Shown here: piece after piece, positions 10,649 to 28,526 of the stretch
Layout of the letters: every line of letters begins with the position of its first letter
Position numbering within the stretch: position 1 is the stretch's first letter
Source of the DNA: a virus
Virus record (IMG/VR): IMGVR_UViG_3300025759_000451
Coordinates: 1 to 30,005 of that record
Length of the DNA: 30,005 nucleotides
Reading direction: 5' to 3' (one strand)
Translations under genes and position numbers: made by a program
Notes under the pieces: model-generated
Databases searched by the model: none
Told to the model about the DNA's origin: nothing
The model's input: only the letters and a program-made list of their open reading frames with translations

Positions 10649-10656
10649 TATATTTG
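10649..10656 (+). promoter_or_regulatory. Possible -7 box before the sigma-like gene pair
   Basis: TATATTTG matches TAnnTTTG, in the 21-base gap after ninG. No -33 TTG is visible and the ATG of the next gene is only five bases downstream, so a transcript would be leaderless or use the second Met (10688). A perfect 12-base palindrome, TATTTGCAAATA, lies at 10674-10685. In DNA this AT-rich a chance match is quite likely. Confidence 0.25.
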
Positions 10657-11567: not shown

Positions 11568-11958
11568 ATTTTTCGTATCTGATGAAGTTTATAATGATAG
11601 ATTAAACATCTGTAAAAGTTGTGATTATTATTTTAAACCAACAGGAAGTTGCAAAGTTTGTTTGTGTTTTATGTCGATCAAAGCTAGAATTAGTTTAATG
11701 GAATGCCCACAGAAGTATTGGTTAAAGACAAAGGAAATAGAACAACCTGAAGGTATTCCTGATGAATTAATACAAGAGGTAATAGTATTATGGGAAGATA
11801 TTAAAACAGGAATAGCTAAAAACCAAGCAGCTAAAAAAAGAATGATAACATTATTTAACACAATTTATAATACAAATTATGACACAGGCACAAGTTGCGG
11901 CACCTGTTTGAATGATTGTTTTAAAGGAATAAAAAATATATATGAAAAATACAAATAA
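11560..11958 (+). CDS. Cys-rich zinc-binding protein
   Basis: The N-terminal 55 residues carry ICKSCDYYF, CKVCLCFM and MECPQKYW. This CxxC...CxxCxC...C pattern, with a Trp after the last Cys-Pro, is a small zinc-binding module I associate with Bacteroidetes phage and mobile-element proteins. A second cluster, CGTCLNDC, lies near the C-terminus (about 114-121). The function is unknown; DNA or protein binding is likely. It overlaps the sigma-like gene by eight bases, so it may belong to the same regulatory group. Confidence 0.65.
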   Translation: MNKFFVSDEVYNDRLNICKSCDYYFKPTGSCKVCLCFMSIKARISLMECPQKYWLKTKEIEQPEGIPDELIQEVIVLWEDIKTGIAKNQAAKKRMITLFNTIYNTNYDTGTSCGTCLNDCFKGIKNIYEKYK

Positions 11959-12208
11959 AATACCTAATTATTATATAGGAAAATACTATAAATATGAAGC
12001 AAGAAAAGTAATTGCTGATTGGGAATTGAGTTACAATGTAGGTAATTCTGTTACCTATCTCTTAAGGTGTGGAAAAAAAACAGAAAAGGGAATGAGCAAT
12101 ATGGATAAACATATAGAAGATATAAAAAAAGCTATACACCATTTAGAATTTGAATTAGAAGAATTAGAGAAAAAGAAATTAAGTCAAGTTAGATTAAACC
12201 ATATTTAA
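11942..12208 (+). CDS. DUF3310-like protein
   Basis: The 88-residue protein fits DUF3310 (related to T7 gp1.7-type proteins): PNYYIGKYYKYEARKVIADW, then LSYNVGNSVTYLLRCGKKTEK and the helix DIKKAIHHLEFELEEL. The core pattern is Y..GNSV.YLLR...K......DI.KA..HL. T7 gp1.7 is a nucleotide kinase; for the wider family the activity is not settled, so nucleotide metabolism is only inferred. It is the last gene before a strong hairpin. Confidence 0.72.
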   Translation: MKNTNKIPNYYIGKYYKYEARKVIADWELSYNVGNSVTYLLRCGKKTEKGMSNMDKHIEDIKKAIHHLEFELEELEKKKLSQVRLNHI

Positions 12209-12280: not shown

Positions 12281-12511
12281 ATGTTAAACTATGTATGTAA
12301 TGTTTGTGGTAACACGAGACAATTAGCAAAAGCAACATTAGAAGTTGTTGATGGTAAAGTAAGAACAAGGGAAGCATTATGTGAATGTGGTGCTTATATG
12401 CAAGAAGAATCTAAAGAATTCGGTGGCTTTCCTAATATAAAAAGAACAGAGCCAACATTATCAAATAGAAAAGATAAGTTATGGGGTGGAGTGAAAGACA
12501 GATTAAAATAA
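12281..12511 (+). CDS. Zinc-ribbon-like small protein
   Basis: The 76-residue protein has YVCNVCGNTRQLAKATLEVV, then TREALCECGAYM, giving CxxC and CxC zinc ligands as in a zinc ribbon, and a C-terminus KRTEPTLSNRKDKLW. Similar proteins occur just upstream of ParB-like and terminase genes in flavobacterial phages, to my knowledge without known function. It lies between the hairpin and the first late-promoter motif; its own promoter is not evident, so it probably depends on readthrough. Its stop overlaps the upstream element of that motif. Confidence 0.6.
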   Translation: MLNYVCNVCGNTRQLAKATLEVVDGKVRTREALCECGAYMQEESKEFGGFPNIKRTEPTLSNRKDKLWGGVKDRLK

Positions 12512-12536
12512 ATTAAATAAAATTCTATTATATTAT
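12505..12536 (+). promoter_or_regulatory. Late promoter motif copy 1 (before ParB-like gene)
   Basis: AAAATAAA (12505-12512), 12 bases, then CTATTATAT starting at 12525; the ATG follows at 12537, 12 bases from that C. The upstream element is the second weakest match to CAAACAAA (6 of 8), while the downstream element is exact through CTATTATAT. It would drive the ParB / ABC-GNAT / terminase operon. Confidence 0.6.
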
Positions 12537-13046
12537 ATGAAGTTAAAAATCAATGAGTTAAAACCTAATCTTGATAATCCAAGAATAATAAAAGACGATA
12601 AGTTTAAGAAACTTGTTCAATCTATAAAAGATTTTCCTGAAATGTTAGAATTAAGACCAATAGTTGTTGATGAAAATATGACTATTCTTGGTGGTAATAT
12701 GCGACATAAAGCTTGCATTGAAGCAGGTTTAAAAGAAGTTCATGTTAAAATAGCTAAAGGTTTAACAGAAGAACAGAAGAAAGAATTTATAGTAAAAGAC
12801 AATGTAGGTTTCGGAGAATGGGAATGGGATATATTAGCTAACGAATGGAATAGCCTAGACTTATCAGAATGGGGGTTAGATGTATGGCAAAATGAAGATG
12901 ATAAAGAAACACCAATTAAAGATATATCAGATAATATATCAGATGAATTTAGAGTAGAAGTAGAACTAACATCAGAAAGAGAACAAGAAGCATTGTTTAA
13001 TGATTTAACTAAAAAAGGATATAAATGCCGAATTTTAACATTTTAA
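12537..13046 (+). CDS. ParB-like (ParB/Srx) domain protein
   Basis: Residues 1-75 form a ParB N-terminal domain: INELKPNLDNPR, then LRPIVVDENMTILGGNMRHK with the GGxMRHKA motif (about 52-59) and VKIAKGLTEEQ. Members bind or hydrolyse nucleotides (CTP in ParB) or cut DNA. The rest (FGEWEWDILANEWNSLDLSE) matches the common extension seen in phage ParB-like proteins that are often fused or linked to DNA methylases; no methylase motifs are present here. The gene directly follows a late-promoter motif with no room for a leader, and overlaps the ABC-GNAT gene by 22 bases. Role inferred: DNA binding or modification linked to packaging. Confidence 0.8.
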   Translation: MKLKINELKPNLDNPRIIKDDKFKKLVQSIKDFPEMLELRPIVVDENMTILGGNMRHKACIEAGLKEVHVKIAKGLTEEQKKEFIVKDNVGFGEWEWDILANEWNSLDLSEWGLDVWQNEDDKETPIKDISDNISDEFRVEVELTSEREQEALFNDLTKKGYKCRILTF

Positions 13047-14104
13047 GGGAAACAAAACCTAAAAAATCTTTTAGAGTATCATCAGTAATGGGTAAGTTTG
13101 ATTTACAAACTGAACATATAAAAGAACATTTTGAAGGTAATATAGATATCGATGATAATTGGCAAATAGGCTTAATAGTTGGTAATAGTGGTACAGGTAA
13201 AACGACTATTGCAAAAGAATTATTTGAAAATGCTTATGTAACTAATTTTAAATATGAAGCAGAAACTATATTAGATGATATGCCTGAACATTCATCTGTC
13301 GATGATATAACTAAAATATTCAATAGCGTTGGTTTTAGTAGTCCACCAAGTTGGTTGAAGCCATATTCAGTATTATCTAATGGACAAAAGATGAGGGTTG
13401 ATTTAGCCAATGCTTTATTAAGAGAAGATGAATTAATAGTATTTGATGAATTTACATCAGTTGTTGATAGAAATGTAGCTAAAATAGGCTCTTATGCTAT
13501 GCAAAAGGCTGTACGTAAATCTGATAAGAAGTTTATAGCTGTAACTTGTCATCATGATGTTCAGGATTGGTTGCTTCCTGATTGGGTATTTAATACCGAT
13601 AGTATGACCTTTCAAAAACTTGAAGGGCAAAAAAAAAATAGACCAAAAGTTAGATTTGAAATATTCCAAACAAGAGATAAGTCAATATGGAAGGTGTTTG
13701 CTAAACACCACTATTTAAGTCATACACATAATAATGCTGCACATAGTTATGTAGCTTATGTTAATGAACAAATAGCAGGATATATAAGTATATTACATTT
13801 ACCAAACAAAAAACCTAACTTAAAGAAAGTACATAGATTAGTTATATTGCCTGATTATCAAGGAATAGGAATAGGAGGGAGATTGTTAGACTTTATAGCT
13901 AAGAAATATACAAAAGAAAATTATGTAATGGGAATAACAACATCAGCACCAAGTTTGATATTTTCATTAAAAAGGCATATAGATTGGGTATGTTATTTCT
14001 TTGGTAGGAATACAGGTAAACAAAAGATGGAAGGATTTAATAAAACAAGTACTAAAAATAGAATAACAGCAGCATTTAGATATATTAAAAATGGACAAAA
14101 ATAG
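13025..14104 (+). CDS. ABC-type ATPase fused to GNAT acyltransferase
   Basis: The first about 200 residues are an ABC ATPase: Walker A GNSGTGKTT (53-61), signature LSNGQ (about 117-121), Walker B LIVFDE (about 137-142) and an H-loop TCHHD (about 173-177). There are no membrane segments, so it is not a transporter subunit. The C-terminal domain (about 215-359) is GNAT-like, with KHHYLSHTHNN, a strand LKKVHRLVILP and the acyl-CoA-binding motif QGIGIG (about 279-284). The Mom protein of phage Mu, which modifies adenine, is also GNAT-related; a similar DNA-modifying role is possible because this gene lies between ParB-like and terminase genes under late control. Acylation of a protein is the alternative. 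Confidence 0.8.
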   Translation: MPNFNILRETKPKKSFRVSSVMGKFDLQTEHIKEHFEGNIDIDDNWQIGLIVGNSGTGKTTIAKELFENAYVTNFKYEAETILDDMPEHSSVDDITKIFNSVGFSSPPSWLKPYSVLSNGQKMRVDLANALLREDELIVFDEFTSVVDRNVAKIGSYAMQKAVRKSDKKFIAVTCHHDVQDWLLPDWVFNTDSMTFQKLEGQKKNRPKVRFEIFQTRDKSIWKVFAKHHYLSHTHNNAAHSYVAYVNEQIAGYISILHLPNKKPNLKKVHRLVILPDYQGIGIGGRLLDFIAKKYTKENYVMGITTSAPSLIFSLKRHIDWVCYFFGRNTGKQKMEGFNKTSTKNRITAAFRYIKNGQK

Positions 14105-14444
14105 ACACATAAAAAAAGAAGCAATATTAAAAGCATTAGAAAATAGCTTGGGAGTAGTAACATTAGCTTGTAAACAAGCAGATATACCAAGAAGTACGTA
14201 TTACAAATGGTTAAAAGAAGATAATGAATTTGCTAAGTCAGTAAAAGAAATTGAAAACATAGCATTGGATTTTGCTGAAAGTCAATTACATACACAGATT
14301 AAAGATGGTAGCACATCAGCTACTATATTTTATTTAAAGACTAAAGGTAAGAAAAGAGGTTATATAGAAAGAAGTGAATTAGATTTATCATCAGGAGATG
14401 AGCCTATAAAAATTAATGTAAACATCAAAGGAGTTGAATATTGA
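14091..14444 (+). CDS. terS: Terminase small subunit
   Basis: The 117-residue protein starts with a helix-turn-helix: KKEAILKALENSLGVVTLAC, then KQADIPRSTYYKWLKEDNEF, which fits the DNA-recognition domain of small terminases. The following helix (ALDFAESQLHTQIKDG) and FYLKTKGKKRGY match the oligomerisation region of the phBC6A51-like type. It recognises the packaging site and delivers DNA to the large subunit. It overlaps the ABC-GNAT gene by 14 bases and the large terminase by 11, so the four packaging-region genes form one coupled unit. Confidence 0.82.
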   Translation: MDKNRHIKKEAILKALENSLGVVTLACKQADIPRSTYYKWLKEDNEFAKSVKEIENIALDFAESQLHTQIKDGSTSATIFYLKTKGKKRGYIERSELDLSSGDEPIKINVNIKGVEY

Positions 14445-15744
14445 TACTGAATTTACTCATACACAAGGACAAGCAATAGAATATCTATTTGATAAACAAA
14501 CAACAGAAGTATTATTTGGAGGTGCAGCAGGAGGAGGTAAAAGTTGGGTAGGTTGTAGTTGGCTTATTTTACTTTGTATTAAATATCCTAAGACAAGATA
14601 CTTAATGGGTAGGAGTAAATTAGATTCATTAAAGAAAACAACACTAAATACTTTTTTTGAAGTTTGCCAAACTTGGGGTATATTGGCTAATAAGCATTAT
14701 AATTTTAATGCAGCATCTAATATAGTTAAGTTTTATAATGGAAGTGAAATAATACTTAAAGATTTGTTTTTATATCCATCAGATAGAAATTTTGATAGTT
14801 TAGGTTCATTAGAAATAACAGCAGCTTTTATAGATGAAGCAAATCAAATAACAGAAAAAGCTAAGAATATAGTTGCATCAAGAATGAGATATAAGTTAGA
14901 TGAATATAATTTAATACCAAAATTATTAATGACTTGTAACCCAGCTAAGAACTGGGTATATACACAATATTACAAACCTGCTAAAGAAGGAGTACAGAAA
15001 CCACATAGGCAATTTATTCAAAGTTTAGTTGATGATAATCAATTTATATCTAAACATTATAAATCACAGCTATTAACATTAGATGAATTAAGCAAACAAC
15101 GACTGCTTTATGGTAATTGGGAATATGATGCAACAAATGATAATTTAATAGAATATGATGCTATATTAAATTTATTTAATCAAACAGGAAAACAGGGGGA
15201 TAAATATATAAGTTGTGATGTGGCTCGTTTTGGTAATGATAGAACAATTATAATGCTTTGGGAAGGGTTACATATCAAAAAAGTAAGAAGTATTGGTAAA
15301 TCAGCTGTAAATCAGGTTGTAGATGAAATTAGGTTGTTACAACAAATTAATGGTGTAAGATTGACTAATATTATAGTTGATGAAGATGGAGTAGGTGGTG
15401 GTGTAAAAGATTATATGCGTTGCAGAGGTTTTGTAAATAATTCAAGAGCATTAAAAGGAGAAAATTATCAAAACTTAAAAACACAATGTTATTATAAATT
15501 AGCTGATATGATTAATACTGCTCAAATAGGAATAGATTGTAATGATATTAATATGAAAAACCATATCATAGAAGAATTAGAACAAGTAAGAACAAAAGAT
15601 GCAGATAAAGACAATAAGTTACAAATAATACCTAAAGAAACTATTAAAGATATTATAGGACGTTCTCCTGATTATGCTGATGCTTTAGCTATGAGAATGT
15701 TTTTTGAATTAGATGCTAATTATGGTAAATATTATGTGCAATAA
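14434..15744 (+). CDS. terL: Terminase large subunit
   Basis: The ATPase domain has Walker A GGAAGGGKS (29-37) and Walker B AAFIDEA (about 130-136) with the coupling motif TCNPAKNW. The nuclease domain has SCDVARFGNDRT (about 260-271), VDEDGVGGG (about 315-323) and PDYADAL (412-418), the three acidic sites of the RNase H-like fold. The enzyme cuts concatemers and pumps DNA into the prohead through the portal. There is no ATG near the start: TTG 14434 directly touches AAAGGAG, while ATT 14440 sits six bases after it, a better ribosome spacing. Either gives nearly the same protein. The gene ends at a hairpin terminator. Confidence 0.93.
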   Translation: MNIDTEFTHTQGQAIEYLFDKQTTEVLFGGAAGGGKSWVGCSWLILLCIKYPKTRYLMGRSKLDSLKKTTLNTFFEVCQTWGILANKHYNFNAASNIVKFYNGSEIILKDLFLYPSDRNFDSLGSLEITAAFIDEANQITEKAKNIVASRMRYKLDEYNLIPKLLMTCNPAKNWVYTQYYKPAKEGVQKPHRQFIQSLVDDNQFISKHYKSQLLTLDELSKQRLLYGNWEYDATNDNLIEYDAILNLFNQTGKQGDKYISCDVARFGNDRTIIMLWEGLHIKKVRSIGKSAVNQVVDEIRLLQQINGVRLTNIIVDEDGVGGGVKDYMRCRGFVNNSRALKGENYQNLKTQCYYKLADMINTAQIGIDCNDINMKNHIIEELEQVRTKDADKDNKLQIIPKETIKDIIGRSPDYADALAMRMFFELDANYGKYYVQ

Positions 15745-15779
15745 AAAAAGGTGCAACCCCTAAAAATTACACCCTTTTT
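15744..15779 (+). terminator. Terminator after the packaging operon
   Basis: An A-rich arm with GGTG (15750-15753) pairs with CACC (15770-15773), flanked by AAAAA/TTTTT with one mismatch, and the stem extends inward with AA/TT. The descending arm ends in five T residues. It starts at the large terminase stop codon and separates that operon from the tail operon. Confidence 0.7.
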
Positions 15780-15820
15780 AAACAAAAACTTTTTGAAAAC
15801 GAGGCAAACATAACAATTTT

Positions 15821-15852
15821 AAACTAAATAACAAATAATTCTATTATATATT
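15821..15852 (+). promoter_or_regulatory. Late promoter motif copy 2 (before tail operon)
   Basis: AAACTAAA (15821-15828), 12 bases, then CTATTATATA from 15841, with ATG at 15853, exactly 12 bases after the C. It follows a terminator, so this site should start the 9.2 kb tail operon. The upstream element matches CAAACAAA at 5 of 8 positions. Confidence 0.65.
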
Positions 15853-16497
15853 ATGCGATTGAAAATAAATAAAGATGGCAAACAAACTGTTTATACTATG
15901 ATAAATAGTTGGAGTGATGTTACATTAGATAAGTGGGTAAAATTAATAAGTAAAAAAGAAAAAACAAAAACAGAAGAAACTTTAGAAACAATAAGTGTTT
16001 TATCTGATATACCTAAAAAGATTATAAAAGAACTATCAATAAATGATGTAGCAGCAATAATGAAAAAATTAGCATTATTACAAGAAAGTGCTAATAATAA
16101 ATTAAAAAAGATAATAACATTAGATGGTGTTGAATATGGTTTCCACCCTAATTTAGAAGAAATAACTCTTGGGGAATACGCTGATATAGAAACATATATG
16201 AAAGATGGTATAGAAAATAATTTACATAAACTAATGTCTGTACTGTATAGACCTATAACAGAAAAACATGGTAATAATTATTCAATTGAAGCTTATGGTA
16301 TAAGTGATACAAGAATAAGAGCAGAAAAATTTAAGAAAATGAAAGCAGAAAATGTAAATAGTTCATTGGTTTTTTTTTGGAATTTCGTAAAAGAACTGTC
16401 GATAATTTTGCCGCAGTATTTAATGGAACAGAGCAAGATGATTCTAAACAAAATACAGGAGAACAATTTGCAGAGAAATGGGGTTGGTTTGGTGTGA
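15853..16497 (+). CDS. Tail assembly chaperone, zero-frame product
   Basis: The 214-residue product begins MRLKINKDGKQTVY and contains WSDVTLDKWVKLI, DIPKKIIKELS and VEYGFHPNLEEITLGEYADI, a pattern I recognise from tail-assembly-chaperone-like proteins at the start of tail operons in Bacteroidetes phages. It would bind the tape measure protein and help tube assembly. After the T9 run (16370-16378) the zero frame continues for about 38 codons with rarer codons (CTG, TCG, CCG, CAG), whereas the -1 frame has normal ones. The biologically important long form is therefore probably the frameshift product described in the next entries. Confidence 0.7.
   Translation: MRLKINKDGKQTVYTMINSWSDVTLDKWVKLISKKEKTKTEETLETISVLSDIPKKIIKELSINDVAAIMKKLALLQESANNKLKKIITLDGVEYGFHPNLEEITLGEYADIETYMKDGIENNLHKLMSVLYRPITEKHGNNYSIEAYGISDTRIRAEKFKKMKAENVNSSLVFFWNFVKELSIILPQYLMEQSKMILNKIQENNLQRNGVGLV
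16370..16378 (+). other. Probable -1 frameshift site (T9 run)
   Basis: Nine T residues flanked by GG on both sides. In the zero frame they read GTT-TTT-TTT-TGG, containing the slippery heptamer T-TTT-TTT. A -1 slip continues as TTG-GAA-TTT into the frame that ends at 16622. Transcriptional slippage on the homopolymer or an assembly error in the run length would give the same appearance. Confidence 0.65.
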
Positions 16498-16622
16498 TGT
16501 ATAGATTAACTAATGGAGAAATAATTAATTTGGAAAGAATAACTAATTTAAGTTTATATGAGTGTTTAACTTGGCTTACTTATGAAACAGATTTAAATGA
16601 AACTAAAGCAGTACAAAGATGA
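16377..16622 (+). CDS. Tail assembly chaperone, -1 frame extension
   Basis: The 81-codon frame begins within the T run and has no ATG start. It contains FAEKWGWFGVMYRLTNGEII, then LERITNLSLYECLTWLTYET, matching the typical C-terminal half of tail chaperone long forms (KWGW....Y.L..G.I..L..(I/V)T.L....CL..L.YE). Slippage at 16370-16378 would give a 256-residue fusion, 175 residues from the upstream frame plus 81 here. This mirrors the gpG/gpGT arrangement of lambda. Codon use in this frame resembles that of real genes immediately after the T run. Its stop overlaps the ATG of the next gene. Confidence 0.72.
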   Translation: MEFRKRTVDNFAAVFNGTEQDDSKQNTGEQFAEKWGWFGVMYRLTNGEIINLERITNLSLYECLTWLTYETDLNETKAVQR

Positions 16623-17113
16623 CATATTTTAAAGATTATAATAATACGATAGATACATTAAAGAAATTAGGTCAACAACATTACCAAATACAAACTGTAA
16701 CAACAGGAGATATATGGGAAATTGATTTGCAAAAAAACACTATGTTTCCTTTAATGCATATTAACCCTGTTAATGCAGTAGCAGGAACACATCAGATGAC
16801 ATTAAATTTTCAAATATTTATTATGGATTTAGTGTTTCCAGACCAATCAAATGAACAAGAAGTATTATCAGATTGTTTACAAATAAGTAATGACTTTATT
16901 GGAACGTTTAAAAATGGAGAAAGTTTATTATTATCTAATCAAGGATTAAATGATATTCCTAAATATTTTACAGAAGGAGATATAAACTTAGAACCATTTA
17001 CAGAAAGATTTGATAGTGCAGTAACAGGCTGGGTATTTACTTTACCTGTTATAATAGAAAATGAATATAATACTTGTATAGCACCACAAGCAACAACAGA
17101 TGCAATACAATAA
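16619..17113 (+). CDS. Tail-region structural protein (possible tail completion)
   Basis: The 164-residue protein starts at ATGA overlapping the chaperone stop. It has a mixed alpha/beta look: MTYFKDYNNTIDTLKKLGQQ, strands around MTLNFQIFIMDLVFPD, then LSDCLQISNDFIGTF and a closing strand GWVFTLPVIIENEYNTCIAP. This pattern, including N(E/N)YN(T/S)C near the end, recurs in Bacteroidetes phages in tail operons, and its size fits a tail terminator or completion protein. The exact role is not shown by motifs. Confidence 0.55.
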   Translation: MTYFKDYNNTIDTLKKLGQQHYQIQTVTTGDIWEIDLQKNTMFPLMHINPVNAVAGTHQMTLNFQIFIMDLVFPDQSNEQEVLSDCLQISNDFIGTFKNGESLLLSNQGLNDIPKYFTEGDINLEPFTERFDSAVTGWVFTLPVIIENEYNTCIAPQATTDAIQ

Positions 17114-17181
17114 TGTTTAAATTTAAAATAGGAAAATTAACGATACAATTAATACCACCAAAAATAACTTATAAAATATAA
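17113..17181 (+). CDS. Possible micro-protein (22 residues)
   Basis: ATG 17113 overlaps the preceding TAA by one base (TAATG). The frame encodes MFKFKIGKLTIQLIPPKITY plus KI and stops at 17181, just before the next gene. It fills the whole gap between two tail genes, which argues for translation, but so short a frame could be chance or a coupling leader. Confidence 0.35.
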   Translation: MFKFKIGKLTIQLIPPKITYKI

Positions 17182-17184
17182 CAA

Positions 17185-17628
17185 ATGGCAGATTTAACAA
17201 CAACAATTAGTGAATCAGTAGTCCTTAATGGTGCAGTAAGAGGAACTACTAATACAGTAACAACAACAGGTATAAACAACGTATATGAACGTATAGTAAC
17301 TTGTACCACAGGGCAAACAACACATATAGCAACTTTTAATACTAACTCTTATGGTTCAGCAGTACAAATAGATAAAGAAGATGTTAGATATATCAGAGTA
17401 ACCAACTTAGATGCTACTAATACTTTAGAACTAGCAGTAGTTGGTGCAGCTACTTTATATCAAGTATTACTGAAAGCAGGACAATCACATATACTATGTG
17501 CAGCAGAAGATGTTATGTTAGCAGAAGCAGATACATCTCCAAGCTTTGGTACTATGGCTGATTTAACAAGTTTACAAGTTAGTCCTGCTGCTACTTTAGA
17601 TGTAGAAATATTTGTAGCTAGTGTATAG
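17185..17628 (+). CDS. Virion structural protein, beta-rich (147 residues)
   Basis: The protein is rich in Thr, Ala and Val and appears all-beta (VVLNGAVRGTTNTVTTTGIN, YIRVTNLDATNTLELAVVGA, LLKAGQSHILCA). Such composition fits a decoration or tail-surface protein. I recall similar proteins in flavobacterial phage tail operons, without known role. It is clearly a late gene, followed by a GTG-started gene overlapping by one base. Confidence 0.6.
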   Translation: MADLTTTISESVVLNGAVRGTTNTVTTTGINNVYERIVTCTTGQTTHIATFNTNSYGSAVQIDKEDVRYIRVTNLDATNTLELAVVGAATLYQVLLKAGQSHILCAAEDVMLAEADTSPSFGTMADLTSLQVSPAATLDVEIFVASV

Positions 17629-18161
17629 TGAAAGCATTAGAAAGATACTTAGAATCATTTGGTAAGTTTGTTATTCAACAATCTAAAAGTAATTTAACTA
17701 GAAAAAAGAAAAACGTAACTAATGATTTATACAACTCTTTAAAATTTACTGTAAATAAAACACCTGATGGATATAGTGTTAAATTTTATATGGATAATTA
17801 TGGAGAGTTTGTAGATAAAGGAGTATCAGGTAATAAAAAAATAAATGAATATACTACTTATGATGGAAGAAATATAGAAAGTCCTTTTAAATATAGGAGT
17901 AAAGGTCCTCCTGTTGATATATTATCAAAATGGATTAAAATGAGAGGTATTAATCCTAAAGGAATTAAAAGGGGTAGGTCTAAAAAAACAGGACAATATA
18001 TTTCAGGTTTGGCATATTTAATAAGTAAAAAAATAAAAAGAGATGGTATAAAAGGAATTAGTTTTTTTCAAAGACCTTTAGGTTTAGGTTTAGCTAAATT
18101 TCCTGATGATATTTTAATAAATATAAAAAAAGAACTTTTAATTAATATAAAAAATCTATGA
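17628..18161 (+). CDS. HK97 gp10-like neck / tail-completion protein
   Basis: Start is GTG overlapping the previous stop (TAGTG). The basic 177-residue protein has VKALERYLESFGKFVIQQSK, the phrase YGEFVDKGVSGNKK, FKYRSKGPPVDILSKWIKMR and ISFFQRPLG near the C-terminus. These match the gp10-like type, which joins head and tail or sits in the neck. The YG.FVD.G.SG element is the most telling. It overlaps the next gene by four bases. Confidence 0.65.
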   Translation: MKALERYLESFGKFVIQQSKSNLTRKKKNVTNDLYNSLKFTVNKTPDGYSVKFYMDNYGEFVDKGVSGNKKINEYTTYDGRNIESPFKYRSKGPPVDILSKWIKMRGINPKGIKRGRSKKTGQYISGLAYLISKKIKRDGIKGISFFQRPLGLGLAKFPDDILINIKKELLINIKNL

Positions 18162-19624
18162 GTATAATAATAGAACAAGCACCATTATATAAAACTTTAC
18201 CTGTTGGACAAGATATAATATTTACAGTATCAAGCGATACTTTGGTTGCAACAAAATATAATGTAAAATTTACTGCTGAAATTTATATTGATGAAGAATC
18301 AAGTAATATTTATAATCCAAGTTCTTATATAGCTAAATTAAAAGTAACCCCTAATAATGTTGGTAGAGGTATATTTTCTTTACAACCTGTTTTAGAAAGC
18401 TATGTATCTGCACAACATCAGGGTACTAATTTTGATACTATAGCAAGTCAATATAAAGGAACAGCATATTCTGATGATAATCCACACCCTATACATTTAA
18501 TTGATAAGTATGCTAATAATAAAAACAATGCAAGATATTTTGGTTTAGCATTTAATATAGAATATTATAATACTGCTGATGCAGTAGGAACACCACAAAC
18601 ATTATTGCAAGCTCAACAATCATTTAAATATTTTTATTTCAATGGGGTATTAGATTTTGATGAAGTGTTAAAGGTAGTAAGAGGTAATTATGGTTATAAT
18701 TTAGATGGAGATAAATTAGTATTAAATGATTATTATGGAACATTAGGTAAATTTTTAAGTAATGCACCTACAACACAATATGCTAAATTAACAGATTATG
18801 GTACTTTATCTTTTTTAAACTTTCTTAATAGTGGTACTTATAGCTTTCAAGTTGGAACTGATAATGCTACAATTAATATGATGGCTTATATTAATATAAA
18901 TTTATATGATAGAACAGGTGCACAACAAGGTTCTTCTATTCGTATAGATTGTACTGATACTAATGGTGGATTTCAATATAATAATGATTTTTCTAATACT
19001 AGAGTTATGTACTTTGGTGCTTTTCCTGCTAACTTAGATAATTGGAGTACAGATTGGGATACTCATAAAGCAAATACAGCTTATTATACAATACAAGCTT
19101 TTGATGATGAAGAAGAAGCTATTAGTCAGCTATATACTATAAATATAATAGGTAATAGTTGTAAAGGTTTTGAAAGTATTAGGTTAACTTGGCTTAATCA
19201 ATATGGTACTTGGGATTATTATACGTTTAAAAAGAAGTCAGTTAAATCATTACAAACTAACAGAACAACATACACACAACAATCAGGTACTTGGAACGAA
19301 AACAAATATAGAATAAGAGGATTTAAAGGTGGTAAGAAAAACTTTAGAGTAAACACAAAACAATTAATAAGTATAAATACTGATTTTATAAATGAAGATG
19401 AAGCAATATGGTTTGAAAATTTAATGAATAGTACAGATGTATATTTATTAAATGGCTATGATAGTGATGTAAATGATACTAGATATGGTATAGTTAATAA
19501 ATATGTAGAGCCTGTTAGAGTTATTACATCTAATTATATAAGAAAAACAAAAGCAAACGATAAGCTTATACAATATACTTTTGAAATAGAAAAAACTAAA
19601 AATAAAAGAACACAATCAGTATAA
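18158..19624 (+). CDS. Tail structural protein (488 residues)
   Basis: The protein is beta-rich and Tyr/Asn-rich with no catalytic motif. The N-terminus (IIEQAPLYKTLPVGQDIIFT) followed by KYNVKFTAEIYIDEES and GRGIFSLQPVLESYVSAQHQ is a combination I associate with tail-tip proteins of Bacteroidetes phages. The C-terminus IRKTKANDKLIQYTFEIEKT resembles the end of distal tail proteins. It probably forms part of the tail tip with the 917-residue neighbour, which it overlaps by one base (TAATG). Confidence 0.55.
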   Translation: MSIIIEQAPLYKTLPVGQDIIFTVSSDTLVATKYNVKFTAEIYIDEESSNIYNPSSYIAKLKVTPNNVGRGIFSLQPVLESYVSAQHQGTNFDTIASQYKGTAYSDDNPHPIHLIDKYANNKNNARYFGLAFNIEYYNTADAVGTPQTLLQAQQSFKYFYFNGVLDFDEVLKVVRGNYGYNLDGDKLVLNDYYGTLGKFLSNAPTTQYAKLTDYGTLSFLNFLNSGTYSFQVGTDNATINMMAYININLYDRTGAQQGSSIRIDCTDTNGGFQYNNDFSNTRVMYFGAFPANLDNWSTDWDTHKANTAYYTIQAFDDEEEAISQLYTINIIGNSCKGFESIRLTWLNQYGTWDYYTFKKKSVKSLQTNRTTYTQQSGTWNENKYRIRGFKGGKKNFRVNTKQLISINTDFINEDEAIWFENLMNSTDVYLLNGYDSDVNDTRYGIVNKYVEPVRVITSNYIRKTKANDKLIQYTFEIEKTKNKRTQSV

Positions 19625-22377: not shown

Positions 22378-23216
22378 TGGATTATTTAAAAGGCTATAAC
22401 ATAAAACCTAAAGAGGTTACAAGTACAGGAGAAGTAATATTTACTGATGGAACATATGAATTTCCACCTAATCAATTAGCTTGTGAAGCTTATGGATATA
22501 CATATAATGAAGCTACAGGAACTTGTTCAGCTTTCAATTATAATTCTAAATTACAAAGCAATTTTTCTAATATATTAAATAACAGAAGTGGTGGTGCTAC
22601 AGATAATGGTACTAAAAACACTATATTAAATGGTCAAGAAAACATTACAAAAGGAAATAACTTCAACAATGTAATGAATGGAGAAAAACACCAAATAGAA
22701 AATGGTGTAAATAATTCATCTATTTTAGGTGGTTCTTATGGTTTATTACAAAATCAAGGAGAAATAGTAATGGCAGGTGGAGGATATAATGCAATATTAG
22801 GGTCTGCTCAAACATCTTTTATACAACAATCAGGAAATACTGAAGATGACACAGAAACATTATTATATACTCAATTTATAACAAATAAATTTATTGAAAA
22901 AGTAGCTAATTCAGTAATGGGTTTTGAAATACATATAGTAGGTGTAAATACAGGTGTAGGAGTAGGAACAGCAGGAGATTATGGTTATATACAAGTATTA
23001 GGTGCAGTAACTTTTAGTAATGGATTAGCTTCTACATATCATCAACACCAAAATTACTTAGTTAATTCAGGTACAAGTGGATTACATCTTAACGCAAGAA
23101 TGAAAGATGCAACGGCTACATCATTTGGTGTTGCAGTAACAGGGTTAAATGAAACATATATACAATGGACAGCAAGTATAAGATTATGGACAAATAAAAT
23201 ACAACAAACTATTTAA
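22377..23216 (+). CDS. Tail fibre-like protein with YadA-head-like repeats
   Basis: Residues about 55-140 contain irregular repeats of the type N.I.NG...I..G.NN: KNTILNGQENITKGNNFNNV, MNGEKHQIENGVNNSSILGG, YGLLQNQGEIVMAGGGYNAI. These resemble the left-handed beta-roll of trimeric autotransporter heads, which suggests a trimeric fibre. The C-terminal half is a probable beta-rich tip (HQHQNYLVNSGTSGLHLN). A Cys pair sits near the N-terminus. Position between the tail-tip gene and tape measure gene supports a tail-attached role. Confidence 0.6.
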   Translation: MDYLKGYNIKPKEVTSTGEVIFTDGTYEFPPNQLACEAYGYTYNEATGTCSAFNYNSKLQSNFSNILNNRSGGATDNGTKNTILNGQENITKGNNFNNVMNGEKHQIENGVNNSSILGGSYGLLQNQGEIVMAGGGYNAILGSAQTSFIQQSGNTEDDTETLLYTQFITNKFIEKVANSVMGFEIHIVGVNTGVGVGTAGDYGYIQVLGAVTFSNGLASTYHQHQNYLVNSGTSGLHLNARMKDATATSFGVAVTGLNETYIQWTASIRLWTNKIQQTI

Positions 23217-23219
23217 GAT

Positions 23220-25103
23220 ATGGCTAAAGAAGAATTAGTATTTGATGTAAAAACTAACATTAAATCAGCAACAAAAGAAACAAAAGAATACACTCAAACA
23301 TTAAGTGAAGCACAAGAAGAACAAAAAAACTTAAATGAACAGTTAAGTATTCAAAAAAGTGTTATTACTGATTTAGAAAAAGAATTAGTTTTAATGGAAG
23401 CCCAATTAAAAGAAACACCTAAAACAGGTGCAGCAGGTTTTTACGCATTACAACAACAAATTGAAGAAACTAATAAAGAATTAAAATTAGAAAAAATAGG
23501 TTTGAAAGAAATTGAAAACCAAATAGATGAAAATAAAAAAAGTGTAGAAGAATTAGAACAAGCAACTAAAGATAGCGAAAAAGGTTTTAAAGGGTTATCT
23601 ACAGTTGTTAAAGGTTTCGGTACTGCATTAAAAGCTGCAGGAATAGGATTAATAGTAGCAGCATTTGCAGCGTTAAAAGAAGCATTGGAAAGGAATCAAA
23701 AAGCAATTGATTTATTTAATACTGTTGTAACTACTATATCAACTACTTTTAATCAAGTTGTAGAAACTTTAACTGATGTTGTTGTTTGGGTAACTGCATC
23801 AACAGACAGATTTAATGGATTAGGTAGTGTTATAAAAGGTATAGTTACAATTGCTATAACACCATTAAAATTATCTTTTCAAGCTATTAAATTAGCTATA
23901 CAACAAGGACAATTAGCTTGGGAACAATCATTTTTAGGTGGTGGAGATGAAGGTAAAATAGCAGAACTAAGAGTATCTATAGGAGAAACTATAACAGATA
24001 TTGAAAAAACAGGAAAAGCTGCTATAGATGCAGGAAAAAATATAGTTACAAATTTTGGAGATGCAGTAACAGAAATAGGTGCTATTTATGAAAAAGTAGC
24101 TGAAGGCATATCAGATATAACTATCAAAGGTAATTATGAGCAAGCAAAAGCTACAACAGCAGCTAATAAAGAAGCAAGAATAGCTGAAGTAAGATTACAA
24201 GGATTAATTGAAAAAAATGATAAATTAGCTGAAGTTCAAAGACAAATTAGAGATGATGAAACTAAAACATTCGAACAAAGGTTAGAAGCTAATAAAAAAT
24301 TAGGAGAAATATTAGATACTCAAGAAAAAGATATGCTTGAATTAGCTGATAAAAGAGTTAATGCGGCTAAATTAGAATTAGATGCTAATAAAGACAATAT
24401 AGATTTACAAAATGCTTATCAACAAGCATTAAATGATAGGGCTGCTGTTGAAGCACAAATAGCAGGATTTAGGAGTGAACAATTAGTTAATCAAGTTTCT
24501 TTAGAAAAAGAATTATTAGAAACACAAAGAGAATTAGCACAAGAAGGTTTATCAGGTATTGAAAAAGAATTACTAGAATTAGAAAATTCTTATAAACTTA
24601 AATTAGATATGGCTCGTAAATCAGGTGTAGATATAACAGCAATAACTAAGCAATATGAAAAACAAAAAGCTGATATAGTACAAGCAGGAATTAATGAACA
24701 ATTATCTGCATATTCTACGTTAGCAACTGCATTAAGTGGTTTAGCAGGAGAAAATAAAGCATTAGCAATAGCATCAGCAGTTATAGATACATACGTTGGT
24801 GCTAATAAAGCTTTAGCAGCAGGTGCAGGTACCCCATTAGGTTTTATACAGGCAGCAGCAGTAATAGCAACAGGATTAGCTAATGTCCAAAAAATAATGC
24901 AAACAAGTGTACCTGGTAGCACTAATCCAGGCAGCACACCACCTTCTATTGATGCAGGAACACCAGCACCTCAAATATTAAGTGGAAAATTTGATTTAAC
25001 ACCAACAGAAGAACCACAACCTGTTCAAGCTTATGTAGTTACAGATAGTTTAACAGATAATCAAAATAAATTAGCTTATATAAGAAGGAGAGCTACAATA
25101 TAA
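23220..25103 (+). CDS. Tape measure protein
   Basis: The 627-residue protein starts with a long coiled coil (LSEAQEEQKNLNEQLSIQKS, QQIEETNKELKLEKIGLKEI), then hydrophobic helices (ALKAAGIGLIVAAFAALKEA, about 137-156), a second coiled-coil region (about 310-460) and an Ala/Gly-rich hydrophobic C-terminus (ASAVIDTYVGANKALAAGAG, then IQAAAVIATGLANV). This order is typical of tape measure proteins, which set tail length and pass into the host envelope. It is short for the class, implying a short tail. It lies at the end of the operon, after tail-tip genes, unlike the usual order in which it precedes them. Confidence 0.8.
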   Translation: MAKEELVFDVKTNIKSATKETKEYTQTLSEAQEEQKNLNEQLSIQKSVITDLEKELVLMEAQLKETPKTGAAGFYALQQQIEETNKELKLEKIGLKEIENQIDENKKSVEELEQATKDSEKGFKGLSTVVKGFGTALKAAGIGLIVAAFAALKEALERNQKAIDLFNTVVTTISTTFNQVVETLTDVVVWVTASTDRFNGLGSVIKGIVTIAITPLKLSFQAIKLAIQQGQLAWEQSFLGGGDEGKIAELRVSIGETITDIEKTGKAAIDAGKNIVTNFGDAVTEIGAIYEKVAEGISDITIKGNYEQAKATTAANKEARIAEVRLQGLIEKNDKLAEVQRQIRDDETKTFEQRLEANKKLGEILDTQEKDMLELADKRVNAAKLELDANKDNIDLQNAYQQALNDRAAVEAQIAGFRSEQLVNQVSLEKELLETQRELAQEGLSGIEKELLELENSYKLKLDMARKSGVDITAITKQYEKQKADIVQAGINEQLSAYSTLATALSGLAGENKALAIASAVIDTYVGANKALAAGAGTPLGFIQAAAVIATGLANVQKIMQTSVPGSTNPGSTPPSIDAGTPAPQILSGKFDLTPTEEPQPVQAYVVTDSLTDNQNKLAYIRRRATI

Positions 25104-25107
25104 AAAT

Positions 25108-25139
25108 CAAACAAATATTAATTTAATCTATTATATATT
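25108..25139 (+). promoter_or_regulatory. Late promoter motif copy 3 (before protease gene)
   Basis: Perfect CAAACAAA (25108-25115), 12 bases, then CTATTATATA from 25128; ATG at 25140, exactly 12 bases after the C. It shares a 15-base identity ending in this CAAACAAA with copy 4 (25101-25115 and 26136-26150), each starting at or near the preceding stop codon. Confidence 0.7.
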
Positions 25140-26138
25140 ATGCCTTGTAAAAAATGTGGAAAAAAATGGAAGTGGGGAGAAAAAGGAGAGTGTAAATACG
25201 ATTCTAAAGATGCTTGTGAAAAAGCTAACCCTAAAAATTACGAAAGTGCTAAAAGTACTAAAGTAATTGAATTATTAATTAGTGATGAAAGTGAAGAACT
25301 AACTATTGATGCTATTAGTTTAGTTACAAGTCCTGCTATTGAACAAGATTTTGTTTATTTTGGTAAGGAAAAAAATAACTTAACTTTTGCAAAAATAGAT
25401 AAAGAAAAAAGAATGTTAGTTAGTCCTGCATTAATACCTGAAAAAACTATTTTCAGATATGACCCTAATACTGATTCAGATTACTATGTGTATTTTTCCA
25501 AAGATACGGTTCGTAAAGCCGCAGAACTTTATTTAAAACATAATAATCATCATAAAGCTACATATCAACACGAAGAAAGAGTTCCTGGTGTTTTAACAGT
25601 AGAATCGTGGATAAAAGAAGGAGAGCAAGATAAATCTAAATTATATGGATATGATTTACCAAATGGAACTTGGTTTGTTAAAATGCGTATAGACAATGAT
25701 GAAATGTGGAATAAGATAAAAGAAGGAGAATTAAAGGGCTTAAGTATAGAAGGATATTTTACTAATAAATTTGAACAAATGCAAAATAAAAAACCAACTA
25801 ATTTAGAAATACTATCAGCTTTAAATGAAATTATAAAAGATTATAAAAAAACTAATAAAATAGAACTAGGTTTGGTTCAAGATGGAGAAGAACATGCTGA
25901 AAACTTATTAGAAATAGCTGAAGAATTAGCAGGAACCAAAAAAGATATAGCAAGAACTATGAAAAGGATAGAATCTTATGAAAATGATGGTATGGAATAT
26001 TTAAGATTTATTAAAAAAACTATTAATGAAATAGAAAAAATTAATAAAGAAATGGGTATAACAGTAAAAATACCTCAATTGAAAAAAATGGAAAAAGCCA
26101 TATCAGAATTTAATAAGGCTCAAATGATTAAAATTTAA
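25140..26138 (+). CDS. XkdF-like prohead protease with N-terminal zinc motif
   Basis: The central domain (about 85-215) matches the XkdF-like putative protease family: MLVSPALIPEKTIFRY, YVYFSKDTVRKAAELYL, HHKATYQHEERVPGVLTVES and WFVKMRIDNDEMWNKI followed by GLSIEGYF. His in the TYQHE segment and Ser in the GLSIEGYF segment fit the catalytic residues of prohead proteases. The N-terminus MPCKKCGKKWKWGEKGECKY has CxxC plus later Cys, a likely zinc site. The C-terminal 120 residues form a coiled coil. It should process the capsid precursor and scaffold. Own late promoter at its start codon. Confidence 0.78.
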   Translation: MPCKKCGKKWKWGEKGECKYDSKDACEKANPKNYESAKSTKVIELLISDESEELTIDAISLVTSPAIEQDFVYFGKEKNNLTFAKIDKEKRMLVSPALIPEKTIFRYDPNTDSDYYVYFSKDTVRKAAELYLKHNNHHKATYQHEERVPGVLTVESWIKEGEQDKSKLYGYDLPNGTWFVKMRIDNDEMWNKIKEGELKGLSIEGYFTNKFEQMQNKKPTNLEILSALNEIIKDYKKTNKIELGLVQDGEEHAENLLEIAEELAGTKKDIARTMKRIESYENDGMEYLRFIKKTINEIEKINKEMGITVKIPQLKKMEKAISEFNKAQMIKI

Positions 26139-26142
26139 AAAT

Positions 26143-26172
26143 CAAACAAAAAGAAAATAATTCTATTATATA
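26143..26172 (+). promoter_or_regulatory. Late promoter motif copy 4 (before scaffold gene)
   Basis: Perfect CAAACAAA (26143-26150), 12 bases, then CTATTATATA from 26163. Unlike the other copies, the ATG is 26 bases after the C (26189), with an A-rich leader AAAAAAAAGAAC. It would drive the scaffold-like and capsid genes, perhaps with normal rather than leaderless translation. Confidence 0.68.
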
Positions 26173-26188
26173 AAAAAAAGAACTCATT

Positions 26189-26884
26189 ATGGATTTAAAA
26201 CAACAAATATTAGTAGCACTTGGTCTTGATAAACAAGATGAAGTTAATTTAGAATTTCAGGCAAAGTTAGAAGATGGAACGCTAATCGTATCTACTTCTG
26301 CTAATTTAGAATCAGGTGTTGATATATCAATTTTAACCGAAGATGGTTCTACAATGCTTCTTCCAATAGGAGAATATAAAACAGAAGATGGACAAAGGTT
26401 TTCTGTAGAAAAGGAAGGAATAATAGCAGAATTATATTCTGATGAAGAAGAAAAAGAAACAGAAGGAGAGCCTGTAAATGAAGAAATGGCTGATGATAAA
26501 GAAGAAGAAGAATATGAAGAAGAAGCTGATGTAGCTGATTGGGAAGGTATGGAAAAACGTATCAAGAACCTTGAAGATGCAGTAGCTGATTTAAAAAAGG
26601 ACAAAGTAGGTAATGATGAAGTAGAAGAATCAGATGTGGAAATGGAATCTGAAACAGAAACTAATCCAACACCTAAAAAAGTAAAAACTACAGAAGAAAT
26701 AGAATTTGAATATCAAGCTAAGATAGAAGAATTAAAATCTAAGGTTGTTGAATTATCAAATCAACCTGCTGATTCTCCTGTTGATACTAATAAATTTAGC
26801 ACAAACAAAAAAGATTTTACTCCTGATTTCAGTAAAATGTCTAAAAGAGATAGAATCTTATATAATTTAACTAATAATAAATAA
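26189..26884 (+). CDS. Scaffold-like acidic protein
   Basis: The 231-residue protein is strongly acidic in the middle (SDEEEKETEGEPVNEEMADD, EEEEYEEEADVADW), with coiled-coil segments (MEKRIKNLEDAVADLKKD and IEFEYQAKIEELKSKVVELS). The C-terminal KMSKRDRILYNL is basic and could bind the capsid protein, as in other scaffolds. It lies directly between the protease and capsid, the standard place for a scaffold. An N-terminal beta part (EFQAKLEDGTLIVSTSANLE) is found also in related phage proteins. No enzymatic motif. Confidence 0.75.
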   Translation: MDLKQQILVALGLDKQDEVNLEFQAKLEDGTLIVSTSANLESGVDISILTEDGSTMLLPIGEYKTEDGQRFSVEKEGIIAELYSDEEEKETEGEPVNEEMADDKEEEEYEEEADVADWEGMEKRIKNLEDAVADLKKDKVGNDEVEESDVEMESETETNPTPKKVKTTEEIEFEYQAKIEELKSKVVELSNQPADSPVDTNKFSTNKKDFTPDFSKMSKRDRILYNLTNNK

Positions 26885-26899
26885 TTAAAATAAAAAAAA

Positions 26900-27814
26900 A
26901 TGGCTTTTACGGTAAATAGTAACTATGCAGGGAAGGCGGCTGGATTTTATATTTCGGCAGCACTTAAAGAAGCAACATCTTTAGACCACTTAACTGTATT
27001 ACAAAACATAAAATATAAAGAAAATTTGCAAAAAGTTGCGGGTTCTGATTTGGTTAGGAATGCTGATTGTAATTTCACAGACCACGGAACACTTGCTTTA
27101 ACTGAATCAGTTCTCGAACCAAAATTACTACAAATTAATATGCAAACGTGTAAAGACACGCTGCTTAGTTCATGGGAGGCTGACCAAATGAAAGCAGGTG
27201 CTATGAATAACAATGCCCCTAAATTTGAGGACTATGTTATTTCTTACTTCACACAACATATTGCTGATGCAGTTGAATCTTCTATTTGGAGTGGTGCTGC
27301 TGCAACTAATGGGCAGTTTGAAGGGTTTTTAACTGCTACTACAGGTGCTTTTGCAGTAAATGGTAACGTAGTTCAAAGTGATAATGATGGTGGTGCAGGT
27401 GTAGCTTATACTGCTTCTAACATTATTGCTAACTTACAAAAAATAGCTGCTGCTATTCCTTCTACAGTTTACGGAAAAGAAGATTTAAGAATATATATGA
27501 ACTGGAAAACTTACAGATTATATGTTTCAGCAATCTCTGCTTTAGGATATGTAAATATGTACTCAATGAACAACGACTACGAAGCTACTTTTGAAGGTAT
27601 CAGATTATCAGTTGTTTATGGTATGCCAGATGACAAATTAGTTGCTGCACAAGTATCTAACTTATATTTTGGTACTGACTTAGTTTCTGACACGACACAA
27701 GTAAAAATGCTTGATATGTCTCCACTAGATGGTTCAGAGAACTTAAGATTTGTTGCTAAGTATTCGGGAGGGGTACAAGTAGGTATCGGTGCTGAAGTAG
27801 TACAGCAAGACTAA
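26900..27814 (+). CDS. Major capsid protein (HK97-fold-like)
   Basis: The 304-residue protein starts MAFTVNSNYAGKAAGFYISA and has features fitting small HK97-type capsid proteins of Bacteroidetes phages: a helix-rich middle EDYVISYFTQHIADAVESSI followed by WSGA, a strand DLRIYMNWKTYRLY, and the P-domain/A-domain end FEGIRLSVVYGMPDDKLVAA, NLYFGTDL. Codons are less A-biased and include more C and G than average, as expected for a highly expressed gene. It follows the scaffold by 15 bases and precedes a strong terminator. Assignment rests on context and fold-like pattern. Confidence 0.82.
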   Translation: MAFTVNSNYAGKAAGFYISAALKEATSLDHLTVLQNIKYKENLQKVAGSDLVRNADCNFTDHGTLALTESVLEPKLLQINMQTCKDTLLSSWEADQMKAGAMNNNAPKFEDYVISYFTQHIADAVESSIWSGAAATNGQFEGFLTATTGAFAVNGNVVQSDNDGGAGVAYTASNIIANLQKIAAAIPSTVYGKEDLRIYMNWKTYRLYVSAISALGYVNMYSMNNDYEATFEGIRLSVVYGMPDDKLVAAQVSNLYFGTDLVSDTTQVKMLDMSPLDGSENLRFVAKYSGGVQVGIGAEVVQQD

Positions 27815-27827
27815 TAATTAATTATAT

Positions 27828-27860
27828 GGAGAGAGGGTTTTTCCCTCTTTCCTTAACTTT
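27828..27860 (+). terminator. Terminator after the capsid gene
   Basis: GGAGAGAGGG (27828-27837), loop TTTTT, CCCTCTTTCC (27843-27852): a ten-pair stem with one G-T wobble, followed by TTAACTTTT. It is a strong hairpin, but no late-promoter motif lies between it and the next gene at 27875, so some readthrough is likely and could set a high capsid-to-tube ratio. Confidence 0.72.
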
Positions 27861-27874
27861 TAAAACAAAAATAA

Positions 27875-28441
27875 ATGGCTTGTGATTTAACTAGAGGGAG
27901 AGGAATCCCGTGTAGAAACCTTATAGGAGGTGTAAAGTATATTTATTTTGCTCAATTTGACCAAGTTGGTACTATAACAACAACTGCATCAGAAATTACT
28001 GATGTAGATATGGGTGCTAACTCTATTTATAGATATTCAATTAGAAGGGGTAATGCTTCGGTTACAGAAACTATTACAGGTTCTACAGAGAATGGTACTG
28101 TAGTTTACGCACCTTCTTTAAATTTAAAGCTAACAGGGTTAAGTAAAGAAGACCAAAATGAATTAAAATTAATTGCACAAAGTAGAGTTATTGCTTTTGT
28201 TCAATTGAATCAAGTATTATCAACTAATGACCATAATGTTATATTATGTTTAGGTGCTACAAATGGATTAGACTTAAATACAGGTACTAATTCATCAGGC
28301 GCTGCATTTGCGGATATGAACGGTTATGAGTGGACTTTCGAGGGGCAAGAATTTGCACCAATGCAAACAGTATTAGATTATACTGCAACACCATTTGACA
28401 ATTTAGATAGTGGTGGTGCAATACCTGTTGTAACTTCTTAA
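27875..28441 (+). CDS. Probable major tail tube protein
   Basis: The 188-residue protein begins MACDLTRGRGIPCRNLIGGV, a start type I associate with tail-tube-like proteins of Bacteroidetes phages (LT.GR...C....GG.K..Y). The rest is beta-rich (IYRYSIRRGNASVTETITGS, VVYAPSLNLKLTGLSKEDQN) with a closing loop FEGQEFAPMQ. The pattern strands-helix-strands fits the tube fold. It lies next to the capsid rather than with the other tail genes, and good codon use suggests high expression. A capsid-associated protein is the alternative. Confidence 0.55.
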   Translation: MACDLTRGRGIPCRNLIGGVKYIYFAQFDQVGTITTTASEITDVDMGANSIYRYSIRRGNASVTETITGSTENGTVVYAPSLNLKLTGLSKEDQNELKLIAQSRVIAFVQLNQVLSTNDHNVILCLGATNGLDLNTGTNSSGAAFADMNGYEWTFEGQEFAPMQTVLDYTATPFDNLDSGGAIPVVTS

Positions 28442-28461
28442 TCAGATTTTACATATAATTT

Positions 28462-28493
28462 AAAAGGAACTACTTCGGTAGTTCTTTTTTTTT
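28462..28493 (+). terminator. Strong intrinsic terminator with TTCG loop
   Basis: GAACTAC (28467-28473), loop TTCG, GTAGTTC (28478-28484), then nine T residues; AAAA upstream pairs with the T run. This is a textbook intrinsic terminator with a stable tetraloop. It ends the head/tube unit directly before late promoter copy 5. Confidence 0.9.
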
Positions 28494-28494
28494 C

Positions 28495-28526
28495 CAAACA
28501 AATCAAAGGTTTTTCTATTATATAGT
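28495..28526 (+). promoter_or_regulatory. Late promoter motif copy 5 (before appendage genes)
   Basis: Perfect CAAACAAA (28495-28502), 12 bases, then CTATTATATA from 28515, and ATG at 28527, exactly 12 bases after the C. It starts one base after the T run of a strong terminator, so it must drive the appendage genes and, across the window ends, probably the portal and lysis genes. Confidence 0.72.

Follow-up and report, generated by a model that had tools for sequence, protein, structure and literature searches.

Introduction

Phage sigma factors that place the host RNA polymerase on a few late promoters are already known, with bipartite promoters in phage 7-11 and single-element promoters in phiEco32, and late transcription of Bacteroidota phages is little known. 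Here, we analyzed a window of 30,005 bases (the whole stretch taken from IMG/VR virus record IMGVR_UViG_3300025759_000451), in which a bipartite element with a fixed 12-base spacer occurs five times ahead of late genes and an open reading frame (ORF) at 11016-11567 appears to encode a divergent sigma factor of the extracytoplasmic function (ECF) type. We consider it probable that these elements act as late promoters for the host core polymerase joined to this phage sigma, and that the resulting mRNAs are mostly leaderless. The Bacteroidota hosts, the boxes with their spacing and the locking of promoter to AUG would be the new features, and searches of the open-access literature found no account of this promoter class.

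The closest described system is that of phage 7-11, with the late sigma SaPh711_gp47 and late promoters of the form GTAAtg-(16)-aCTA (PMC8948821). Shared with the proposed system are a phage sigma acting on the host polymerase, a small number of bipartite late promoters (8 in 7-11), early genes left to the host sigma and a CTA in the core; 7-11 is, however, an enterobacterial phage with other boxes and another spacing, and was mapped experimentally, whereas the window system is known from sequence. The phiEco32 sigma gp36 uses promoters of the form tAATGTAtA (PMC8948821, PMC4331800). It likewise drives middle and late genes from a start 6-8 bp past the element, but its promoters are single elements that lack a -35 box, and phiEco32 additionally inhibits host sigma-70 through phi32_gp79, for which no counterpart was identified in the window phage. 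The late promoter of T4, TATAAATA, is read by gp55 and needs gp33 and the gp45 clamp. It resembles the window sites in its AT-rich -10-type element and its divergent phage sigma, and differs in having no -35 box, whereas the window class has a conserved upstream box at a fixed distance. In phiKZ, the start at the late promoter TATG of the non-virion RNA polymerase is reported at its G (as quoted in PMC5312081), i.e., close to a possible start codon position as predicted for the window, but the enzyme is a multisubunit phage polymerase and not a host core with a sigma.

The cascade proposed here, from a host-type box through a sigma gene to five promoters whose start bases can be predicted, can be read from the DNA in a testable form, and hundreds of viral contigs contain members of the family. 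Beyond the element itself, which had been noticed in an initial annotation, we add a probable recognition protein, a predicted leaderless geometry, a host-type box ahead of the sigma operon and a parallel system in the cultured phage P12024L.

A bipartite element at the heads of five late operons

The initial annotation described five copies of the motif, all with a spacing of 12 bases, three with a perfect upstream box and two with weaker forms. All were found at the positions given there, on the coding strand, with exactly 12 bases between the 8-mer and CTATTATAT(A/T) in each, and with CAAACAAA three times, next to AAAATAAA and AAACTAAA:

12505-12534, + strand: putative late promoter 1, AAAATAAA-N12-CTATTATATT; predicted start 12537, the A of an ATG; heads the ParB-like / ATPase-GNAT / terS / terL operon
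15821-15850, + strand: putative late promoter 2, AAACTAAA-N12-CTATTATATA; predicted start 15853, the A of an ATG; opens the tail operon, which runs up to and includes the tape measure gene
25108-25137, + strand: putative late promoter 3, CAAACAAA-N12-CTATTATATA; predicted start 25140, the A of an ATG; head maturation protease gene
26143-26172, + strand: putative late promoter 4, CAAACAAA-N12-CTATTATATA; predicted start 26175, with a predicted 14-nt leader before ATG 26189; the gene precedes the likely major capsid gene
28495-28524, + strand: putative late promoter 5, CAAACAAA-N12-CTATTATATA; predicted start 28527, the A of an ATG; appendage operon

As had been claimed, each copy stands before late genes: all five head late operons, the terminase genes being third and fourth in the first one. 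The distance from the 10-mer to the ATG is 2 nt in four of the five copies and 16 nt in the remaining one (ATG 26189). When up to three mismatches were allowed, six matches were obtained in the window against 0.91 expected by chance, a number reached in 0 of 100 shuffles, while the consensus learned from relatives gave five matches on the + strand and none on the - strand (first-order Markov null: 0.016 per window) and CTATTATATW-N2-ATG occurred four times (null: 0.026). The motif search of this genome and of related phages that the annotation had suggested thus returned the element far above shuffles, and again in the relatives. Chance or AT-richness as its source was rejected by the shuffles, the strand bias and the conservation. 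A match at 11948 was rejected as a sixth promoter, being located inside ORF 11942-12208, where a coding match (YYIG) is also present in relatives.

The annotation was also right that the motif is unlike the Bacteroidetes promoter, since TAnnTTTG at -12 to -5 is found in none of the five sites. Neither do they have the form of the T4 late promoter, TATAAATA with no -35 element, and both a T4-like and a host sigma-A promoter were rejected on sequence.

Conservation in related viral contigs

The bipartite element with its rigid 12-base spacer is present at equivalent operon heads in scores of related IMG/VR contigs, and the sequence of the spacer drifts. Exact CTATTATATA cores in 109 related loci were found 176 times on the gene strand (with the ATG exactly 2 bases after the core in 114) and 19 times on the opposite one, several of the latter being palindromic double counts. 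When clustered by downstream sequence, the sites fell into recurring operon heads, apart from one coding match (YYIG) and a few stray matches. The promoter is retained at the operon head even in relatives where the head gene is a different one.

When 80 non-redundant sites, a few stray ones included, were aligned by their cores, the upstream box [C/A]AA[A/C][C/T]AAA stands at -20 to -13 relative to the core with 0.7 to 1.3 bits per column. The two boxes together range over 0.7-1.5 bits per column (the fixed C is higher), the spacer has mostly 0.04 to 0.3 bits, and the last three bases beside the core have 0.4-1.2 bits. Because these sites carry the upstream box at exactly that distance, the two weak boxes of the window are aligned correctly. 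The weak boxes of promoters 1 and 2 were found again at the equivalent genes in relatives, and are therefore probably tuned rather than decayed.

The sites are confined to one side of the sigma gene, with 0 in 139,657 nt on the early side vs. 42 in 207,345 nt on the late side, in agreement with the annotation, which had seen none before early genes. The tested contigs hold 58 CTATTATATW-N2-ATG sites, on one strand only within each contig, and no occurrence of a reversed control pattern. In distant contigs (sigma identity near 55-60%), late-side sites occur at up to five positions. Among phages with a similar terminase (11b, phi10:1, P12002L), we found no A1 or A2 sigma, TIGR02937 match or CTATTATATW-N2-ATG. 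The distinct late promoter class that had been proposed is supported by this conservation at orthologous operon heads, by the late-side confinement and by the linkage to a phage sigma gene described below.

A candidate late sigma factor and its linkage to the element

Directly upstream of the late region is the gene of the probable recognition protein:

11016-11567, + strand: candidate sigma factor for late genes, of the ECF type, 183 aa, with a predicted sigma2 and sigma4 joined by a disordered linker

Its product aligns with TIGR02937 over residues 19-181 (E 2.3e-10), and all 24 aligned family members match this ECF sigma model. The domain plan appears to consist of regions 2 and 4 only, without 1.1 and 3, and the length of 183 aa lies within the range of ECF sigmas (about 160-200 aa). 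A region 2 may be present at the N-terminus, where the TIGR02937 alignment starts at residue 19 and the modelled helices are ECF-like, but the window protein has no separate PF04542 match. Region 4 at the C-terminus is supported by the extension of that alignment to residue 181 and by weak matches to PF04545 (E 7e-4 in the window protein; 23/24 members) and PF08281 (18/24). Both AlphaFold models (pLDDT 69 and 72) have an N-terminal helical domain, a disordered linker (87-113) and a C-terminal helix-turn-helix domain. The best Foldseek matches in the PDB were sigma factors, with the M. tuberculosis ECF sigma L at the top (E 1.7e-3 and 1.1e-3), and the sigma4 part matched 3hug with a TM score of 0.69 by target length; a PDB sequence search with the sigma profile gave weak sigma matches only. 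Taken together, sequence profiles and models suggest that the protein is a divergent ECF-type sigma factor. It has 382 relatives in IMG/VR, and a tblastn search against cultured phages gave no match. In a search of bacterial genomes for the sigma gene or a prophage, the sole match was a 36.1-kb contig (PAPR01000004.1, L124) of a Pseudooceanicola metagenome-assembled genome, which probably derives from a phage and was mis-binned.

Scanning IMG/VR by the DNA motif alone yielded 76 stretches, and 19 motif-found records of at least 20 kb, together with one sigma-derived record (G020), were searched for the sigma gene. It was present at E below 1e-60 in 17 of the 20 records (16/19 without G020). 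All three sigma-less records are fragments. Two of them end 0.3 and 2.0 kb from the first late promoter, which would place the sigma gene beyond the contig or at its border, and in the third the first two operon heads are not shown. The pattern associated with phage late sigmas, i.e., a sigma gene along with a repeated phage-specific promoter that is found at late operons and is missing from early genes, is thereby seen in the window with its sigma-like gene.

Host-type boxes ahead of the sigma operon and the early genes

The host is presumably a marine member of Bacteroidota, as suggested by a DUF3127 protein and Nonlabens relatives, and boxes of the host type are found on the early side:

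6001-6008, + strand: -7 box of the host type, TATATTTG, in front of the early operon, where no -33 TTG is clearly seen
10649-10656, + strand: host-type -7 box TATATTTG, 4 nt before ATG 10661
10661-11023, + strand: small gene overlapping the start of the sigma gene

The second TATATTTG box is conserved across 31 relatives with few exceptions, at 3 to 6 nt from the ATG of the gene preceding the sigma gene and with variable flanks. This small gene and the sigma gene are likely to form one operon. In Flavobacterium johnsoniae, the -7 element lies at -12 to -5, 4-5 nt from the start (PMC6847099), and by this geometry the mRNA of the sigma operon would itself be near-leaderless. The product of 10661-11023 has a sub-threshold Csm2-like match and might act together with the sigma factor or regulate it, e.g., as an anti-host-sigma protein. 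For the ORF listed at 5998-6252, the TTG start overlaps the box at 6001, and translation more probably begins at an in-frame ATG further on (MKTQYRV).

Predicted start sites and leaderless geometry

The ATG follows the core by 2 bases in 155 of 241 distinct sites. The other 86 retain both boxes, with the ATG at other distances of up to 33 nt. Among 45 non-redundant sites with the ATG elsewhere, the base at core+12 is an A in 93%. If this A is +1, the C of the core falls at -12 and the upstream box spans -32 to -25. With either the ATG 2 nt after the core or a conserved A at that position, most late mRNAs should be leaderless, and four of the window promoters are predicted to start on the A of the AUG. 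The codon-position variation from codon 2 onward is compatible with translation from these ATGs.

In Flavobacterium psychrophilum, only 5.5% of mRNAs are leaderless (PMC9723704). In some relatives (L022:4565, L035:11898, L045:5177 and similar), the first late operon has a leader of 29-32 nt, unlike the leaderless form predicted in the window, and these leaders contain an inverted repeat, AATTGAATAATCAATT or TTGATTAATCAA.

A parallel system in Nonlabens phage P12024L

Phage P12024L, a cultured relative growing on Nonlabens/Persicivirga IMCC12024, was linked to the window phage through its capsid and portal genes (27% and 32% identity, respectively) and synteny. At the equivalent locus upstream of terL, it encodes gp35, annotated as sigma-70 region 2, with a PF04542 match above the cut-off. 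At the late genes of P12024L and of its uncultured relatives, the arrangement is AAAACAAA-N14-CGTTAATATA-N2-ATG, in which the spacer hardly varies, and the resulting AAC-N17-CGT resembles ECF promoters. In P12024L, the genes concerned are those at 3031, 5412, 22090, 24771, 26011 and 27612. P12024L and P12024S (Inhavirus) thus share with the window a sigma-like gene upstream of terL, the AAAACAAA upstream box and an ATG 2 nt after a 10-base core, but differ in the core (CGTTAATATA), the spacer of 14 and a sigma too divergent for pairwise detection. A common origin of the two sigmas is likely from these comparisons. No late promoter of P12024L or P12024S was described in the literature searched, and this parallel version is testable now. 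A P12024-type pattern in contig L193 was judged to be a chance match, with an N12 spacing and no sigma found in that contig.

The Flavobacterium ECF sigma motif SM6 has a CGT box and belongs to a host nutrient-response and type IX secretion system regulon (PMC9723704). Its CGT in the -10 region is shared with the P12024L class, whereas the window class has CTA instead (AAC-N15-CTA).

It is possible, although we stop just short of calling it likely, that late sigma and start codon are geometrically locked. In this reading, a large clade of phages of marine Bacteroidota would keep +1 on the A of the AUG, and the P12024 lineage would do so separately, using another core and spacer, so that most late mRNAs would have no leader although leaderless mRNAs are rare in the hosts. 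If true, initiation without a leader would add a further level of selectivity for late genes, at translation. The fixed distance to the AUG lets one ask why a phage would choose leaderless late mRNAs.

Proposed mechanism and alternative explanations

Early in infection, the host RNA polymerase with its own sigma-A would read the host-type -7 boxes, including TATATTTG before the unit 10661-11567. The second gene of this unit would give the small ECF-type sigma, which would join the host core polymerase and direct it to [C/A]AA[A/C][C/T]AAA-N12-CTATTATAT(A/T), with presumed recognition of the upstream box by region 4 and of the CTATTATA element by region 2. Transcription is predicted to start about 12 bases downstream of the first C of the core, on an A, which at four of the five promoters would be the first base of the ATG, yielding leaderless mRNAs for packaging, tail, protease and appendage genes.

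Several points weigh against this mechanism. The window protein scores 40.4 bits with TIGR02937, slightly below the curated cut-off of 42.9, and since the cut-off is not reached we named it ECF-type and divergent and did not file it as a family member. Both structural models are of moderate quality, and Foldseek gave no match at E 0.001 or better. The sigma profiles of P12024L and the window are weakly alignable (hhalign E 0.0012, low probability), the box at 10649 has no clear -33 element, and the co-occurrence of sigma and motif stems in part from shared ancestry, which makes the linkage supporting and not decisive. More generally, the support comes from sequence and models, for a phage with no cultured host.

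Among the alternatives, the best surviving one is that a host sigma, either the primary one or an ECF factor, reads the late promoters with the help of a phage activator, with no phage sigma involved. The host probably has ECF sigmas of its own (seven are known in F. psychrophilum, PMC9723704), and early phage genes seem to use host boxes. We nevertheless regard it as unlikely, as the element has no TAnnTTTG, the phage encodes a full-length sigma-like protein that travels together with the motif, and P12024L pairs a different core with a different phage sigma.

Less probable still is that CTATTATATA-N2-ATG serves as a translation-initiation signal of late genes and not as a promoter. The ATG does stand exactly 2 nt after the core in most sites and Bacteroidota ribosomes do not use Shine-Dalgarno sequences (PMC6847099, PMC9976891), but both boxes are kept in the 86 of 241 sites with the ATG elsewhere, the element is found at operon heads only and at no internal genes, and an upstream box at a fixed distance has no evident translational role. 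We give equally little credit to the boxes being operators for a late activator or a DNA-processing protein, e.g., the ParB-like product encoded in the first late operon, with the promoter role secondary: CTATTATATAATAG is palindromic in some relatives only, on which ground the palindrome was rejected as general, and the sites all share one orientation at transcription-unit heads, are spaced like -35 and -10 elements and have a conserved A resembling a start base.

Promoters of E. coli are not functional in Bacteroidota. The compact phage sigma/promoter pair of the favored mechanism, being expected to be acceptable to the host polymerase, is a possible orthogonal expression tool for this phylum.

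Gene layout of the window and additional features

The window has a G+C content of 28%, with genes almost all on the same strand. Early genes at ~6.0-12.2 kb include those for replication initiation, the DUF3127 protein and a NinG-like nuclease, and from 12.5 kb onward packaging, tail, protease, likely capsid and appendage genes follow:

12537-15744, + strand: late operon 1, with ParB-like, ATPase-GNAT fusion, and terminase small and large subunit genes
15853-25103, + strand: late operon 2, tail genes with the tape measure
25140-28441, + strand: late operons 3 and 4, with head protease, likely scaffold and likely major capsid protein, then one gene
28467-28493, + strand: intrinsic terminator GAACTACTTCGGTAGTTC-T9, adjoining putative late promoter 5 and kept in relatives; its hairpin is listed on the other strand as well

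The portal and endolysin genes are at the left end of the window, a gene order that fits a circularly permuted record, and no terminal overlap was found when it was looked for in this record. The ATPase-GNAT fusion (13025-14104) lies after the ParB-like ORF (12537-13046) and before terS/terL. It has relatives in many unrelated phages, with identities up to about 50%, and bears the annotation 'ABC siderophore transporter' in phages of Gram-positive bacteria. Directly 3' of the likely major capsid gene (26900-27814), a strong terminator-like hairpin, GGAGAGAGGG-TTTTT-CCCTCTTTCC, was located at 27828-27852; it has no late promoter of its own downstream and is a possible attenuation or processing site.

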